From: Microbacterium marinum
Lineage (GTDB): Bacteria; Actinomycetota; Actinomycetes; Actinomycetales; Microbacteriaceae
DNA length: 64,000 nucleotides
Reading direction: 5' to 3'
NCBI RefSeq assembly: GCF_014204835.1
Contig: NZ_JACHMD010000001.1
Span: forward strand, 124,001-188,000
The translations under genes and the position numbers were made by a program. Within the stretch, counting starts at the first letter, position 1, and every line of letters begins with the position of its first letter. The notes under the pieces were generated by a model that was given only the letters and a program-made list of their open reading frames with translations, searched no databases and was not told where the DNA came from. Positions 3,604 through 9,449 of the stretch are shown here, in pieces.

Positions 3604-4599
3604 TCAGCCGTAGTCGGGCGCGGCCGGCAGGCCGAAGAACTCCTCGAGCGTCGTGTACCCGCCCTCGGCGTACGCGGCAGCGAGGTCGCGGCCGACGAAT
3701 CGCAGATGCCAGGGTTCCGCCGAGTACCCGGTGGTCGCCGTGTGCCCGTCCTCGTAGCGGACGACGAACCCGTAACGCCAGGCGTTCTCGGCGATCCAGT
3801 CCGACTGCGGCGTGCCACCGAAGCCGTCGTGGTCGCCGCACCCAGCGCTGTCGCACGCGACGACGTCGACGGCGAGCCCGGTCTGGTGCTCGCTGTGCCC
3901 GGGGCGGGCGCTGCGCAGGTCGGCGGCATCCTGCCCGCGCATCGATACGTACCGCCGGTAGGTGTCGACCTTGAAGTCGTACGGGCGGAAGCCGCTGCTC
4001 ACCGCGATCGTCCCCGCACCGGCATCGGAGACCGCCGCGGAGAGTTCGTCGAGGGCGGATGCCACGGGCTCGAGGAGCCAGCCGCCCGCCACGATCCGCG
4101 TGTCCTGCGGGCGAGCCTGCGGGGTGGGCCAGTACTCGAGCGGATCGAGTGCGTTCCGCTTGTTCACGACGACCCACAGCCGGCCCGCGTCGTGCAGATC
4201 GATGCAGGGCGCGGCATCCGTCGCCACCGCGTCACGGAAGGCCTCACCGCCTCCGAAAGCGGCGATCACGTCGGCATCCGTTCCGGTCTGCAGCGCCGCC
4301 GCGACCTCGGGCCGGTCACACACGGCGGTGGGCGGCGCCGGTGACTCCGCAGGACTCGGCGCGTCGGCCGCGGGGGCCGGGGCGTCGGCCGCGATCAGCG
4401 GCGCGTCCTCCGCGACGGCGGGCGCATCCGGTGCCAGCGCACGGGGGATGACGACGGCCGCAGTGATGACCATCCCGGCCGTCAGCACGAGGATGACGAG
4501 GGCGCGACGCCGTCGTCGTGCCCGAAGGATCGCGCGCCGGCGCGCGCAACTCCGGGGCTGCGACACCCCTCCATTGTCGCCGAGGCGCGGCGACCGCAT
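3604..4599 (-). CDS. D-alanyl-D-alanine carboxypeptidase family protein (VanY/M15B type)
   Basis: A membrane-anchored zinc peptidase of the VanY (M15B) family, expected to trim D-Ala from peptidoglycan stem peptides outside the membrane. The order is: a short Arg-rich cytoplasmic segment, one transmembrane helix (about residues 33-52), an Ala/Pro/Asp-rich linker (about 55-92), then the catalytic domain. Zinc motifs are intact: SEHQTGLAVDV (SxHxxGxAxD) and EPWHLRF (ExxWH). The start is uncertain: I chose ATG 4599, but a GTG at 4566 sits directly after GGAGGG and would still keep the membrane helix. The open frame extends further up to 4815, but that part overlaps the divergent radical SAM gene antisense and is unlikely to be translated. 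Confidence 0.85.
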   Translation of the reverse strand: MRSPRLGDNGGVSQPRSCARRRAILRARRRRRALVILVLTAGMVITAAVVIPRALAPDAPAVAEDAPLIAADAPAPAADAPSPAESPAPPTAVCDRPEVAAALQTGTDADVIAAFGGGEAFRDAVATDAAPCIDLHDAGRLWVVVNKRNALDPLEYWPTPQARPQDTRIVAGGWLLEPVASALDELSAAVSDAGAGTIAVSSGFRPYDFKVDTYRRYVSMRGQDAADLRSARPGHSEHQTGLAVDVVACDSAGCGDHDGFGGTPQSDWIAENAWRYGFVVRYEDGHTATTGYSAEPWHLRFVGRDLAAAYAEGGYTTLEEFFGLPAAPDYG

Positions 4600-4634
4600 C
4601 GGGCGCGACACGTTCGATTTCGTGATTTCTATTA

Positions 4635-4669
4635 TTGACACACCTTCGATACTCTGTTCGAATTTGATT
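4635..4669 (+). promoter_or_regulatory. promoter of the radical SAM gene with an SOS-box-like motif
   Basis: TTGACA at 4635-4640 is a perfect -35 box. A 17-base spacer leads to TCGAAT at 4658-4663 as the -10. Six bases later comes GTG 4670, so transcription would begin on the start codon. The 16-mer 4646-4661 (TCGATACTCTGTTCGA) matches the actinobacterial LexA operator TCGAAC-N4-GTTCGA except at two left-arm positions, and it overlaps the -10. The region is strikingly AT-rich for this genome and also lies upstream of the divergent VanY-like gene. Confidence 0.6.
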
Positions 4670-6769
4670 GTGCGGTGTAACGGGCAGAGCATCACGACGG
4701 TCGACGATGCAGCCCTGCCCGGCCTGGAGTCGCTGGGTGGCCTCGTACGCTCCGTCACCACCCCCGAGTTCGCCGGGATGACGTTCCACGAAGTGGTCGC
4801 GAAGTCGGCGCTCAATCACGTGCCGCACACCTCGGCGATGCCGTTCTCCTGGACCGTCAACCCCTATCGCGGCTGCTCGCATGCATGCACGTATTGCCTT
4901 GATCCCGAAACGCTCGTCATGACCGAAAACGGCCGACACCGGCGACTCAAGGATGTTCGAGTCGGTGACGTGCTGGTCGGAACTCGGCAAGACGGGGAGT
5001 ACCGGCGCTACACTCCCTCTACCGTGCGCGCAGTCTGGGCGACGCGCAAACGCGCATACCGCGTGACGCTTGCAGACGGGACGGAAATCATCTCAAGCGG
5101 TGACCATAGGTTCCTCACCAACCGCGGATGGAAGTACGTCACGGGAACCGGCTCCGGCGCGGCGCAACGCCCGCATCTCACGACCGGGAACCGCCTGCAG
5201 GGCTTCGGCACGGGCGCGCCGCACGACGCGAGCGACTTCGCTACTGATCGCGATTTCGAACGCGGCTACCTGAGCGGCATGATCCGCGGCGACGGAATGC
5301 TGCTCCACAAGAGCTACACCGACGCGAAGCGCACACGAGTCGTGCACCGGTTCCGCCTCGCGCTGGCGGATCGCGAAGCGCTCGACCGGTCTCGCACGTT
5401 CCTCCAGAACGCCGGCGTCGAAACGTACGAGCGGGCATTCGCTCCGCAGACCGCCACGCGGCGAGCGATGACAGCGATCCACACCGGTCGGAAGGACCAC
5501 GTCGAACGCATCGAAGCACTCATCAGCGAGCCGAGCGACCCGACGTCCGCATGGCGCGCGGGGTTTCTGTCAGGGATCTTCGACGCTGAAGGCTCGTGCT
5601 CGCGGGGCATCCTGCGCATCGTGAACACCGATACGCGCCTCATCCGCAGCGTGCGCGAGGCACTCGACCACTTCGATGTGCAGTCCGTGACGGAGCCGCC
5701 GCGCCCGAACGGCGTCATCGCTGTTCGGGTGACCGGCGGGCTCCCGTCGCGAGATCGGTTCTTCCGACTCACCACACCTGCGATCACCCGGAAGCTCGCC
5801 ATCATCGGCTCGGCCGTCAAGACGACGTCCGATCTGCGCATCGTGTCGATCGAGGATGTCGGGGAACGGGACCTCATAGACATCTCGACCGACACCGAGG
5901 ACTTCATCGCCGCCGGCGTCATCAGCCACAACTGCTTCGCCCGCAACACGCACACGTACCTCGACCTCGACGCGGGGCGCGACTTCGATTCGCAGATCGT
6001 CGTCAAGGTGAACGTCGCCGAGGTGCTCTCGCGGGAGCTCGCCCGGCCGTCATGGGGTCGCGAGCCGGTCGCACTCGGGACGAACACCGACCCGTACCAA
6101 CGCGCCGAGGGCAGATACCGGCTCATGCCCGGCATCATCGACGCACTCGCCTCGCATGGCACCCCGTTCTCCGTGCTCACCAAAGGCACGCTGCTGCGAC
6201 GAGACCTGCCGTTGCTCACGGACGCCGCGACCTCGGTGCCCGTGCACCTGGCGTTCTCGATCGCGGTGCTCGACGAACCTCTGCGGCAGCTCCTCGAACC
6301 GGGCGCGCCGACGTTCCAGGCACGACTCGACACCGTCCGCGCAGCCACCGATGCCGGGTTCCGCGTGACCGTCTTCCTCATGCCGATCGTGCCGCACCTC
6401 ACCGACTCGCCCGAGGTGCTCGACGACGCGATCAGTCGCATCGCGGCATCCGGTGCGGTCCGCGTCGTGTTCGGCGCGCTGCACTTGCGCCCGGGCGCGA
6501 AAGAGTGGTTCTTCGCGTGGCTCAAGCGCGAGCGACCCGACCTGCTCCCTCGCTATCGCGGGCTCTACCCGGGCGTCTCCTCATACGCGCCGGCCGGCTA
6601 CCGCAAACTGCTCAGCGCGCGGGTGCGGCCGCTGCTGCGGAAGCACCGGGTCGCCGGTCGCGCCGAAGAAGAGGGTCCAGCGCGCCACTCGAGCCTCGGT
6701 CCGGTGCAGACGACCGGGGCGGTGATGAAGACGGCGACGCGCGAACAGGCCGCCGCGATGCTGTTCTGA
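4670..6769 (+). CDS. Rv2578c-family radical SAM protein interrupted by an intein
   Basis: The precursor is 699 residues; removing a 346-residue intein leaves about 353. The N-terminal extein runs to the radical SAM motif CSHACTYC, where residues 69, 73 and 76 form CX3CX2C for a 4Fe-4S cluster that cleaves S-adenosylmethionine. The third cysteine is interrupted by the intein and restored on splicing. The C-terminal extein (FARNTHTYLDL onward) matches the rest of the Rv2578c family. That family's reaction is unknown to me; some members are linked to DNA-damage responses. The GTG start is placed by the leaderless promoter immediately upstream; an open frame extends back to 3962 but only as antisense of the VanY-like gene. 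Without splicing the iron-sulfur site cannot form. Confidence 0.9.
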   Translation: MRCNGQSITTVDDAALPGLESLGGLVRSVTTPEFAGMTFHEVVAKSALNHVPHTSAMPFSWTVNPYRGCSHACTYCLDPETLVMTENGRHRRLKDVRVGDVLVGTRQDGEYRRYTPSTVRAVWATRKRAYRVTLADGTEIISSGDHRFLTNRGWKYVTGTGSGAAQRPHLTTGNRLQGFGTGAPHDASDFATDRDFERGYLSGMIRGDGMLLHKSYTDAKRTRVVHRFRLALADREALDRSRTFLQNAGVETYERAFAPQTATRRAMTAIHTGRKDHVERIEALISEPSDPTSAWRAGFLSGIFDAEGSCSRGILRIVNTDTRLIRSVREALDHFDVQSVTEPPRPNGVIAVRVTGGLPSRDRFFRLTTPAITRKLAIIGSAVKTTSDLRIVSIEDVGERDLIDISTDTEDFIAAGVISHNCFARNTHTYLDLDAGRDFDSQIVVKVNVAEVLSRELARPSWGREPVALGTNTDPYQRAEGRYRLMPGIIDALASHGTPFSVLTKGTLLRRDLPLLTDAATSVPVHLAFSIAVLDEPLRQLLEPGAPTFQARLDTVRAATDAGFRVTVFLMPIVPHLTDSPEVLDDAISRIAASGAVRVVFGALHLRPGAKEWFFAWLKRERPDLLPRYRGLYPGVSSYAPAGYRKLLSARVRPLLRKHRVAGRAEEEGPARHSSLGPVQTTGAVMKTATREQAAAMLF
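4895..5932 (+). mobile_element. intein with LAGLIDADG homing endonuclease domain
   Basis: This is a 346-residue in-frame protein intron. It begins with Cys1 in CLDPETLVM (block A), has a block-B-like SGDHRFLT with its histidine near intein residue 71, and ends DFIAAGVISHN followed by Cys+1 (blocks F and G, with the essential His-Asn). Two endonuclease motifs, LSGMIRGDG (about 126-134) and FLSGIFDAEG (about 224-233), show a two-motif LAGLIDADG enzyme that looks intact, each keeping an acidic residue. The insertion point is exactly before the third cysteine of the CX3CX2C motif, a conserved catalytic site, as is typical for inteins. Confidence 0.95.
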
Positions 6770-6935: not shown

Positions 6936-9161
6936 TCAGGCGTCGACGTTGGACGCCTGACGGCCCGCAAGCTCCTCGATGACGTCGTCGCCGATGCGCG
7001 CCTCCTCGAACGGGGCGTCGATTTCGGCGCGCTCAAGCATCTCGGTCATCTTGCGACGACGCTGACGCGTGATGAGCGTCACGACGGTGCCCGAGCGGCC
7101 CGCGCGACCGGTGCGCCCGGCGCGGTGGGTGTACGTCTTGTACTCGTCGGGAGCGTCCGCCTGCACGACCAGGTCGATGTCATCGACGTGGATGCCGCGG
7201 GCAGCGACGTCCGTCGCGACGAGGACGTTGACCTTGCCCTTCGTCAGCCGCTCGAGGTTGCGGGTGCGCTTGGCCTGGTTGAGGTCACCGTGCAGCGCGA
7301 CGGCCGCGATACCGGCATCCTCGAACTGCTCGACGAGCATCTCGGAGAACGCACGGGTGCGGGTGAAGACGAGGGTCTTGCCGTCGCGGTCGACGAGCGA
7401 GCTGAGGATCTCGGCCTTGTCGCGGTGGTCGATGACGAGCACGCGGTGGTCGATCGTCCCGGTGTCCTGGGTCTCGCCGGCCACCTCGTAGACGGCCGGG
7501 TCGACGAGGAACTCGTCGACGAGAGCAGCGACCTCGCGGTCGAGCGTCGCCGAGAACAGCAGCTTCTGGGCGCCGTCCTGCACGAGGCGGAGGATGCGCT
7601 GCATCGGCTCGAGGAAGCCGAGCTCGCTCATGTGGTCGGCCTCGTCGAGGACGACCATGCGGATCTCGGACAGGTCGAGCTTGCCCTGCGCCTGCAGGTC
7701 TTCGATGCGGCCCGGGGTGCCGATGATGATGTCGACACCCTTCTTCAGCGCGCCCACCTGCCGCGCCTGGGGCACGCCGCCGTAGATCTGCGTCGTGAAC
7801 AGGCCGACGCTGCGCGCGAGGCTCTGCACGGTGCGGTCGATCTGCAGCGCGAGCTCGCGGGTCGGCGCGAGGATCAGCGCCTTCGGCGACCGCCCGAACT
7901 CGCGGCGCTGGCCGGCCTGGCTGCGGAGGATCGACTCGACGAGCGGGGCACCGAACGCGATCGTCTTGCCGGAACCGGTGCGCCCGCGGGCGAGCACGTC
8001 GCGACCCTCGAGGATCGGGCCGATGGTGGCCGCCTGGATCGGGAACGGCGCGGCCGCACCCATGTCGGCGAGCGTCCTCACCAGGTTGTCGCCGAGGCCG
8101 AGCTCGGCGAAGGACGACTGCTCGACGCTCTCGGCGTCGACGGCCTTAGCCTGCAGACGCTCGTGCACGACGTCGGCACGCTGCGCCTGGGCGTTGGTCT
8201 CGGCGGACCCCCCACGGCCACTCCACGCGCCGCTGTCGCGTCGCGTGGAGCCTCCGGCCGCGTGGCCCCAGCTCGAACGGCTCGGGCCGTCGCCTCGGCG
8301 GGGTCGGTCGTCGCGCTGCGGCCGGTCGCCGAGGTCACGACGCGGACGGTCGTCGCGCTCGAAGCGGGGGCGCTCGGCGCGCTGCGGGCGGTCGAAGCCG
8401 GGGCGGTCGTCACGGCGCGGGCGGTCGTCGAAGCTCCGCGCGGGGCGGTCGTCACGACGCGGGCGATCGTCGAAGCTCCGCGCGGGGCGGTCGTCACGAC
8501 GCGGACGGTCGTCGCGCTCGTACCGCGGGCGGTCGGCGCGCTGCGGGCGGTCGAAGCCACCGCGGTCGTCACGTTGCGGGCGGTCGCCGAAGTCGCGGCG
8601 CGGACGGTCGTCGCGCTCGTACCGCGGACGCTCGGCGCGCTGCGGGCGGTCGAAGCCACCGCGGTCATCGCGACGCGGGCGGTCATCGAAGCTCCGCGCA
8701 GGACGGTCATCGCGCCGCGGACGCTCGTCACGGTCGAACGATCGAGCCGGCCGGTCGCCGACGTCACGACGCGGACGGCTGTCCCGGTCGCCGAGCGAGC
8801 GCTGCGGGCGGTCGTCCCGGCCGAAGCGGGGCCGGTCGCCGTCGAACGACCGACGCGGACGCTCGTCGGCATCGCGACGCGGGCGCTCGTCGCGGTCGAA
8901 GCGGCGGTCGCCACGGGCCTGCGAGCGGATGCCGCGTGCCTCGTCGCGTCCGACGCGCTCCTGTGCGCTCCAGCGGCCCTTCGCAGCGGCGCCGCCCTCT
9001 TCGGGGGCGCGGTAGCCGCGGTGGCTGGGGCTCTTGCTGCCGGCGGTTCCGGCCGAGGACTGACCGGGACGGCGCTTGGCGTCCTGGTACGAGGTCTTCT
9101 TGCCGTAGCGCGGCTCGAAGTTCTGCGCGCGGCCGCCGGCCGGCTTCTTGTTCTTGGGCAT
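6936..9161 (-). CDS. DEAD/DEAH-box RNA helicase with Arg/Asp-rich repeat N-terminus
   Basis: This is a 741-residue superfamily 2 helicase expected to remodel RNA (ribosome assembly or mRNA decay). The core starts near residue 350 and shows, in order: Q motif FPIQAATI, motif I ARGRTGSGKT (391-400), PTRELALQ, GTPGRIEDL, DEAD (506-509), SAT (537-539) and HRAGRTGRAG. Unusually, the disordered region comes first: residues about 86-295 are a repetitive DRPRRDDRPARSF-type tract. The C-terminus is short. I chose ATG 9161 because AGAAGGAA lies at the right spacing; the frame runs back to 9245 without support. A small inverted repeat lies just upstream of the ribosome-binding site. Confidence 0.93.
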   Translation of the reverse strand: MPKNKKPAGGRAQNFEPRYGKKTSYQDAKRRPGQSSAGTAGSKSPSHRGYRAPEEGGAAAKGRWSAQERVGRDEARGIRSQARGDRRFDRDERPRRDADERPRRSFDGDRPRFGRDDRPQRSLGDRDSRPRRDVGDRPARSFDRDERPRRDDRPARSFDDRPRRDDRGGFDRPQRAERPRYERDDRPRRDFGDRPQRDDRGGFDRPQRADRPRYERDDRPRRDDRPARSFDDRPRRDDRPARSFDDRPRRDDRPGFDRPQRAERPRFERDDRPRRDLGDRPQRDDRPRRGDGPSRSSWGHAAGGSTRRDSGAWSGRGGSAETNAQAQRADVVHERLQAKAVDAESVEQSSFAELGLGDNLVRTLADMGAAAPFPIQAATIGPILEGRDVLARGRTGSGKTIAFGAPLVESILRSQAGQRREFGRSPKALILAPTRELALQIDRTVQSLARSVGLFTTQIYGGVPQARQVGALKKGVDIIIGTPGRIEDLQAQGKLDLSEIRMVVLDEADHMSELGFLEPMQRILRLVQDGAQKLLFSATLDREVAALVDEFLVDPAVYEVAGETQDTGTIDHRVLVIDHRDKAEILSSLVDRDGKTLVFTRTRAFSEMLVEQFEDAGIAAVALHGDLNQAKRTRNLERLTKGKVNVLVATDVAARGIHVDDIDLVVQADAPDEYKTYTHRAGRTGRAGRSGTVVTLITRQRRRKMTEMLERAEIDAPFEEARIGDDVIEELAGRQASNVDA
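8284..8910 (-). repeat. in-gene tandem repeats encoding the helicase Arg/Asp tract
   Basis: Direct repeats inside the helicase gene: a 42-base unit repeats around 8404, 8446 and 8488 (about 14 residues of the RPARSFDDRPRRDD type), and a longer block recurs with a 99-base offset (8521 and 8620, 33 residues). Copies are nearly identical at the DNA level, so the tract probably changes length by slippage or recombination. Confidence 0.85.
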
Positions 9162-9177
9162 GGGAGATTCCTTCTGA

Positions 9178-9193
9178 GTTCTCACACGAGAAC
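9178..9193 (-). promoter_or_regulatory. inverted repeat in the helicase leader
   Basis: GTTCTC-ACAC-GAGAAC forms a 6-bp stem in the leader mRNA just before the AGAAGGAA ribosome-binding site of the helicase gene. It could be an mRNA hairpin that affects translation or stability, or an operator. Function is inferred only from position. Confidence 0.35.
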
Positions 9194-9449
9194 AGCGCTG
9201 CGCACACACGCAGACATACCCGGGCTGTCGTCGACCGGGGGCCATTCCAGTTACTGGTTCCGAAACCGCGGATCGGGTTTCGAGATCGGCCCCGAGGACT
9301 CACACAGAATGCCCGTGCACAGCACGGTGTCCTCCGCCGACTCCCCCACGATACCGGACGCTCCTGGGAGGCCGCCGGGCGCGGGCACCGCCGCACCGCC
9401 GACAGACCCGCGCACCACCCACGCCGCGCGCCGCCGATACGCTGTGCCC

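Follow-up and report, generated by a model that had tools for sequence, protein, structure and literature searches.

The window, a 64,000-nucleotide stretch of the Microbacterium marinum genome, carries a radical SAM gene of the Rv2578c family with an intein. The gene occupies 4670..6769 (+) and encodes 699 amino acids, from a GTG start codon inferred from the family profile to a stop codon at 6767-6769. An N-extein of 75 residues (4670..4894, +; 70-protein alignment A1, frame checked) is followed by the 346-residue intein (4895..5932, +) and a C-extein of 278 residues (5933..6766, +), whose first residue, Cys+1, would become the third cluster ligand once the protein is spliced. On the opposite strand lie a divergent gene for a VanY-type D-alanyl-D-alanine carboxypeptidase (3607-4572, -), with a LexA-like box between it and the radical SAM gene, and a convergent gene for a DEAD-box helicase with long N-terminal Arg/Asp/Pro-rich repeats (6936-9245, -).

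The Rv2578c-family assignment made in the first-pass annotation holds: the window protein passes the curated cut-offs of both NCBIfam models, NF038136 for the intein-containing family (752.8 bits, cut-off 700; residues 1-660) and NF038135 (487.5 bits, cut-off 430). The 3.12-Mb genome has a single gene of this radical SAM kind. As a member of NF038136, the protein agrees with that family in both extein and intein, and the window intein alone is of a known kind because NCBIfam already names the family. The element is real and belongs to a named family; the NF038136 model is limited to one extein family and is silent on other hosts.

Splicing and endonuclease motifs of the intein

Class 1 inteins excise themselves by an established chemistry carried out by Cys1, the terminal Asn and Cys+1. 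In the window the Cys1 codon is 4895-4897, the terminal Asn codon ends at 5932 and the Cys+1 codon is 5933-5935, giving the junctions GCSHACTY/CLDPETL and AAGVISHN/CFARNTH (the slash marks the splice point). The placement at the third radical SAM cysteine proposed earlier was exact in both coordinates and junctions. Splicing block B, SGDH (5096..5107, +), has Ser at the usual Thr place, and its His71 is invariant in a 24-intein alignment (A2), as are the penultimate His345 and terminal Asn346 (5927..5932, +). All 113 parsed loci, a set in which some genomes occur twice, have Cys1; L116, which the parsing pattern missed, carries Ser1. The C-terminal junction reads HN/C in the window and in all 113 parsed loci. 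The element thus has the class 1 set of position-1 nucleophile, block B His, His-Asn and +1 nucleophile, and the catalytic splicing residues are intact. The intein alone scored 30.6 bits against the intein N-terminus model TIGR01445 (cut-off 24.5), of which it is the sole match in the genome, and fell slightly short of the Pfam Intein_splicing cut-off (34.5 against 35.8 bits).

Both LAGLIDADG-type motifs, described beforehand as looking intact, keep their acidic residues (RGDG and FDAEG). Every one of the 100 full-length inteins parsed has the acidic residue of motif 1, GYLSGMIRGDG (5264..5296, +); motif 2, GFLSGIFDAEG (5561..5593, +), follows FD[AST][ED]G in 99 of 100, with L060 deviating. 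The intein passes the Pfam LAGLIDADG_3 cut-off and gave a profile match to I-DmoI (PDB). The reading frame, in which a frameshift had been named as one of the observations that would overturn the proposal, is open across the gene. Compared with the L071 intein, pN/pS was 0.24 in the splicing parts and 0.37 in the endonuclease part. These features suggest that the window element is probably a functional class 1 LAGLIDADG intein. One homologue (L062, genome G019) has a TAG inside the intein on a 3.8-kb contig, reflecting decay or an assembly error.

The LexA-like box and the cysteines of the motif

The LexA-like (SOS) box, TCGATACTCTGTTCGA, lies at 4646..4661 (+), differs from TCGAAC-N4-GTTCGA at 2 of 12 positions and ends 8 bases ahead of the start codon. 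The best match mostly lies likewise in aligned relatives, and when the sequence upstream in the window was Markov-shuffled 50 times, one shuffle gave an equally good match (0.02). The SOS-like element of the first-pass annotation is therefore real and conserved in position among relatives, and a conserved LexA-like box at the predicted promoter would be consistent with membership in a LexA regulon. A simple promoter scan of 4560-4760 found no promoter.

The same annotation had raised a tie between the box and splicing, and this link was not supported. With at most two mismatches allowed, and with some loci representing the same genome twice, the box was found at 62 of the 112 loci that have the intein and 12 of the 18 that lack it, compared with 3 of 112 and 0 of 18 in equal stretches of coding DNA. 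Within Microbacterium it occurred at 23 of 50 loci with the intein and 25 of 58 without, and a tree-aware test with only seven usable pairs gave no association between box and intein. Since intein-less relatives have the box about equally often, it belongs to the gene and not to the intein; as a part of the intein system it was rejected on the similar frequency and the null pair test.

The lexA gene of M. marinum has only a three-mismatch site, which means that the consensus does not fit the species perfectly. About 200 bases ahead of recA there is a one-mismatch site, and the genome holds 31 sites with at most one mismatch against 10 for a reversed control pattern. The only perfect TCGAAC-N4-GTTCGA in the genome is at G000:C1:1202237-1202252 (L142, L158), with no adjoining SOS gene clearly recognised. 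For Streptomyces venezuelae, one study gives the LexA consensus tCGAAC-N4-GNNCGa (PMC9380542) and lists a 'Radical SAM protein', vnz_31145, with a LexA site and 19.97-fold induction by mitomycin C (Table 1 of the same paper); the likeness of vnz_31145 to the window gene is one of product name.

Read in the unspliced chain, CX3CX2C spans 4874..4897 (+) and is formed by Cys69, Cys73 and the intein Cys1 (residue 76), all invariant in alignment A1. The unspliced chain still shows the motif because Cys1 fills the place of the third ligand. The proposal that the precursor cannot hold a 4Fe-4S cluster is therefore only a structural guess. At the N-terminal junction (ACTY/C) Cys-3 and Cys1 are both present, as in a MoaA-type redox trap. 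Cys-3 doubles as the second iron-sulfur ligand. The enzyme's own motif fixes it, and that it is conserved therefore does not speak for a switch. An internal cysteine pattern was rejected as a switch: the sole other Cys of the window intein, residue 235, is variable among relatives, and no Cys besides Cys1 is constant among them.

The L116 intein, from Cryobacterium algoritolerans, reads HACSY/SLSPETL at its N-terminal junction and retains Cys+1. With no third Cys in its precursor, it offers a natural control for judging a redox trap. Ser1 was also seen in the intein of a QueE-like host (L294).

Distribution in Microbacterium and across host families

The gene was matched in 188 of 198 Microbacterium genomes and carried the intein in at least 52 of the 188: 42 matches span the whole intein and 10 are shortened to 154-283 residues, the match beginning inside the intein with the splice ends intact. 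Shortened inteins of 150-283 residues occupy the same site in L032-L041, L140 and L141. The predicted endonuclease part is reduced or lost repeatedly in these loci while the splice ends are kept. Comparison with intein-less homologues, which had been suggested as a check, showed CX3CX2C unbroken at the site, with Cys directly after CX3CX2, in 58 of 58 Microbacterium loci (18 + 40, selected because they match without an intein).

A quick tree built from 114 extein rows calls for at least 27 changes in the presence of the intein, and well-supported branches force 7 of these; for the shortened form it calls for 8 changes, 5 forced. The nearest host relative of the window (L031, 92.6% extein identity) has no intein, and comparison with it revealed no co-conversion tract of recent homing. 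The nearest intein among named genomes is that of M. oleivorans CD11_3 (75%). Synonymous differences between the window and the nearest intein were about 1.05 for the inteins and 0.58 for the exteins; the greater divergence of the inteins does not indicate recent transfer between the two. Intein and extein identity were correlated over 99 full inteins (Spearman 0.59), as partly vertical descent would give.

A scan of genome contigs with the window intein yielded 71 loci in Microbacteriaceae, other Actinobacteria and MAGs labelled Beta-/Gammaproteobacteria and Omnitrophota. All 63 loci that parsed automatically have the intein at the third Cys; the other eight, read by eye, comprise seven with Cys1 and L116 with Ser1. 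Ten loci in a set of 141 were missed by the pattern (by eye, nine with the motif and L116 with Ser1), as were two of a 120-protein set (P0021 and P0119, CX3CX2/C by eye). A search that included extein residues placed the site in 35 of 41 long proteins; it is biased and was not counted as evidence. Two records bear doubtful labels. L132, from a MAG labelled Bordetella parapertussis, is a PA0069-like radical SAM gene with an intein of the lineage, and the label is probably wrong. The host gene of L079 (Stenotrophomonas maltophilia P13 contig 27) groups within Microbacterium, which probably reflects contamination of the contig.

Viral contigs were scanned with intein residues only (endonuclease-motif patterns), giving 30 loci. 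The best eight by E-value were all CX3CX2/C in different host proteins, which resemble spore-photoproduct-lyase/PA0069-like proteins, a DUF1848 protein and several SPASM-type maturases, one of which passes TIGR04115 (408 bits, cut-off 350). None of the remaining 20 readable viral loci showed CX3CX2/C. When proteins were searched with a single viral intein as the query, 66 matched at an E-value of 1e-5 or lower, and 59 of these (58 of 65 without the query) have the intein at CX3CX2/C: 50 of 57 new proteins and all 9 of those found before. Among the 50 new proteins, at least 18 are hosts without the NPYRGC-type signature of Rv2578c/PA0069. The hosts include radical SAM families between whose extein parts BLAST detects no similarity. 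The other seven were P0276 (PF07505, CX6CX2/C), P0283 (QueC, CX2/C), two POR_N proteins, a terminase, one protein without an assigned family and one cut off before the site. P0283 is QueC-like (PF06508, 174.6 bits) with its intein at LQCGT/C; insertion is thus not confined to the metal sites of radical SAM proteins.

When 296 genomes of the phylum to which the window belongs were scanned with a profile built from the eight viral inteins, 24 matches were near-full and a steep drop followed. Twenty-two, the window included, are CX3CX2/C, all in Rv2578c/PA0069-type hosts; one is CX6CX2/C and one, in a host that we take to be QueE, is CX3CX2/S. As a baseline, Cys-3 occurred in 2 of 70 actinobacterial TIGR01445 inteins, both at the radical SAM Cys3 site; these were the 30 best-scoring and 40 hand-picked among the matches listed (L338 was not readable in frame), and 2/70 may be low because the picks were non-random and TIGR01445 scores the lineage weakly. 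Another intein-containing family, radical SAM by the name of its model, is the tetraether lipid synthase Tes (NF045703), whose profile gave a weak match to L240 (28.6 bits, cut-off 1700).

The residue ahead of the third Cys in radical SAM enzymes is usually aromatic. All 113 parsed Rv2578c-type loci have Y or F as the -1 residue, and 48 of the 50 new proteins found with the viral query have Y, F or W there; in neighbouring viral inteins outside radical SAM genes it was Y or F in 16 of 20. Cys+1 was present in 49 of 49 Cys3 inteins extracted, and the neighbours have Cys, Ser or Thr at this position.

Origin and meaning of a proposed intein lineage

Forty-eight Cys3 inteins from distinct proteins were compared in pairs. 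All 1128 of 1128 pairs were similar in the intein at E<1e-5 and 225 in the extein, and in 859 the inteins matched at E<1e-10 with exteins at E>1e-3; this intein similarity is partly built in because the rows were chosen by it, and the informative part is the shared site in unlike hosts. Median end branches in the Rv2578c family were 0.22 for the intein and 0.053 for the extein (the row sets differ). With the intein evolving faster, co-descent would leave inteins more divergent than exteins, whereas between families it is the inteins that are more alike. A 25-row clade (SH-aLRT 98) of a 77-intein tree unites inteins of Rv2578c, PA0069, SPL-like and mob-pair-A-like hosts, all at Cys3. A wider group also takes in 15 viral inteins of other genes, QueC and POR_N; the tree gave composition warnings and its deepest split, or root, is weak (67). 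P0148 and P0155, the latter with a short intein, were left out of both tree and pairwise comparison, and L206, a near copy, out of the tree only. The putative lineage is impure: QueC (CX2/C), POR_N, a terminase, one unnamed-family protein and the 15-row viral clade lie within or beside it.

These results suggest that the inteins belong to a mobile lineage whose adaptation is to insertion at CX3CX(aromatic)/C. Our main reading, to which we give a probability of about three in four, is that the window element is a probably functional class 1 LAGLIDADG intein whose lineage is adapted to the radical SAM motif and has reached unrelated families by endonuclease activity and horizontal transfer, with LexA-like control being independent. 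The gene would be translated as one chain, intein included, and the intein would excise itself through Cys1, Asn346 and Cys+1, after which Cys+1 would serve the Rv2578c-type enzyme as the third ligand of its 4Fe-4S cluster. Splicing depends on a nucleophile that follows the intein and on a preceding residue that is compatible, and in very many radical SAM enzymes CX3CX(aromatic)C supplies an aromatic -1 residue and Cys+1. Since the enzyme fixes both, a lineage suited to them could lodge in unrelated families. Carriage between families by the putative endonuclease and horizontal transfer is inferred from sequences, and the LexA-like box would control the gene irrespective of the intein.

The first-pass annotation had raised a stress-dependent switch. 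In such a switch oxidation would pair Cys1 with Cys-3, or iron or another metal would hold Cys1, so that splicing halts and the enzyme is released only once conditions are reducing, with SOS induction supplying the precursor during DNA damage. The MoaA intein of Pyrococcus abyssi also has a radical SAM host. Its native Cys-3/Cys1 disulfide is reported in reviews to block splicing (PMC10663303, PMC3922620), and the window shares the spacing of this pair at the N-terminal junction; the enzyme is a different one and the host archaeal. From the spacing, we infer that the MoaA intein may likewise be inserted at Cys3 of the motif. In DnaB intein 1 of Mycobacterium smegmatis, an oxidative stress sensor and likewise an actinobacterial intein under cysteine-based control, a cysteine pair is reported to mediate inhibition by H2O2 (PMC6195587). 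That intein is of class 3, sits in a P-loop and has its disulfide partner inside the intein, whereas the window intein has no such conserved Cys. The LexA-like box at the gene fits a switch as well, but it is about as common where the intein is absent, Cys-3 is set by the enzyme motif, no additional intein Cys is constant, and L116 and L294 have Ser1. Redox or stress control of splicing is possible and unsupported by these data, and we consider the switch unlikely. A dead intein, unable to splice, in a gene on its way to loss is highly improbable: nothing in the window points to it, and one relative (G019) has a stop in the intein, whereas the window has an open frame, intact splicing residues and the pN/pS values given above.

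Two histories compete with transfer between families. If an ancestor of the radical SAM genes had acquired the intein, which then diverged along with the families, the identical insertion position in distant families would follow, as would the correlation of intein and extein identities within the Rv2578c family. Such old vertical descent is very doubtful given the patchy presence and an intein that evolves faster than its extein within Rv2578c yet remains alignable between families whose exteins are not. P-loops are a classic hot spot for intein insertion. The radical SAM motif could be one more, its conserved active-site codons drawing many unrelated inteins, and inteins are reported to cluster in active sites and other conserved motifs (PMC5050341). 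This convergence is improbable to us, as searches with the intein alone find the Cys3 site mainly in one similarity group and inteins of four host types fall in the well-supported 25-row clade. We therefore favour a mobile lineage suited to the radical SAM motif.

No description of a radical SAM Cys3 intein hot spot was found in the literature searched, which was covered in part and with subscription journals mostly outside it. The concentration across families at one iron-sulfur cysteine may, tentatively, be the new part, and it is the part that deserves attention. Such a lineage might also act as a checkpoint, in which Cys-7, Cys-3 and Cys1 mimic a 4Fe-4S site and a metal, a cluster or a Cys-3/Cys1 disulfide pauses splicing until iron-sulfur and redox conditions suit. 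We regard this as quite unlikely; if true, radical SAM enzymes ranging from DNA-repair-like to peptide-modifying would be gated by iron-sulfur and redox conditions. Full-length, shortened and Ser1 inteins, spread over many hosts, provide a natural construct set for iron-sulfur or redox gating of splicing. An intein is usually regarded as an allele at a single gene site. If a lineage tracks a short metal-binding motif through unlike families, this would mean that splice-junction chemistry, not host ancestry, can set the range of an intein.
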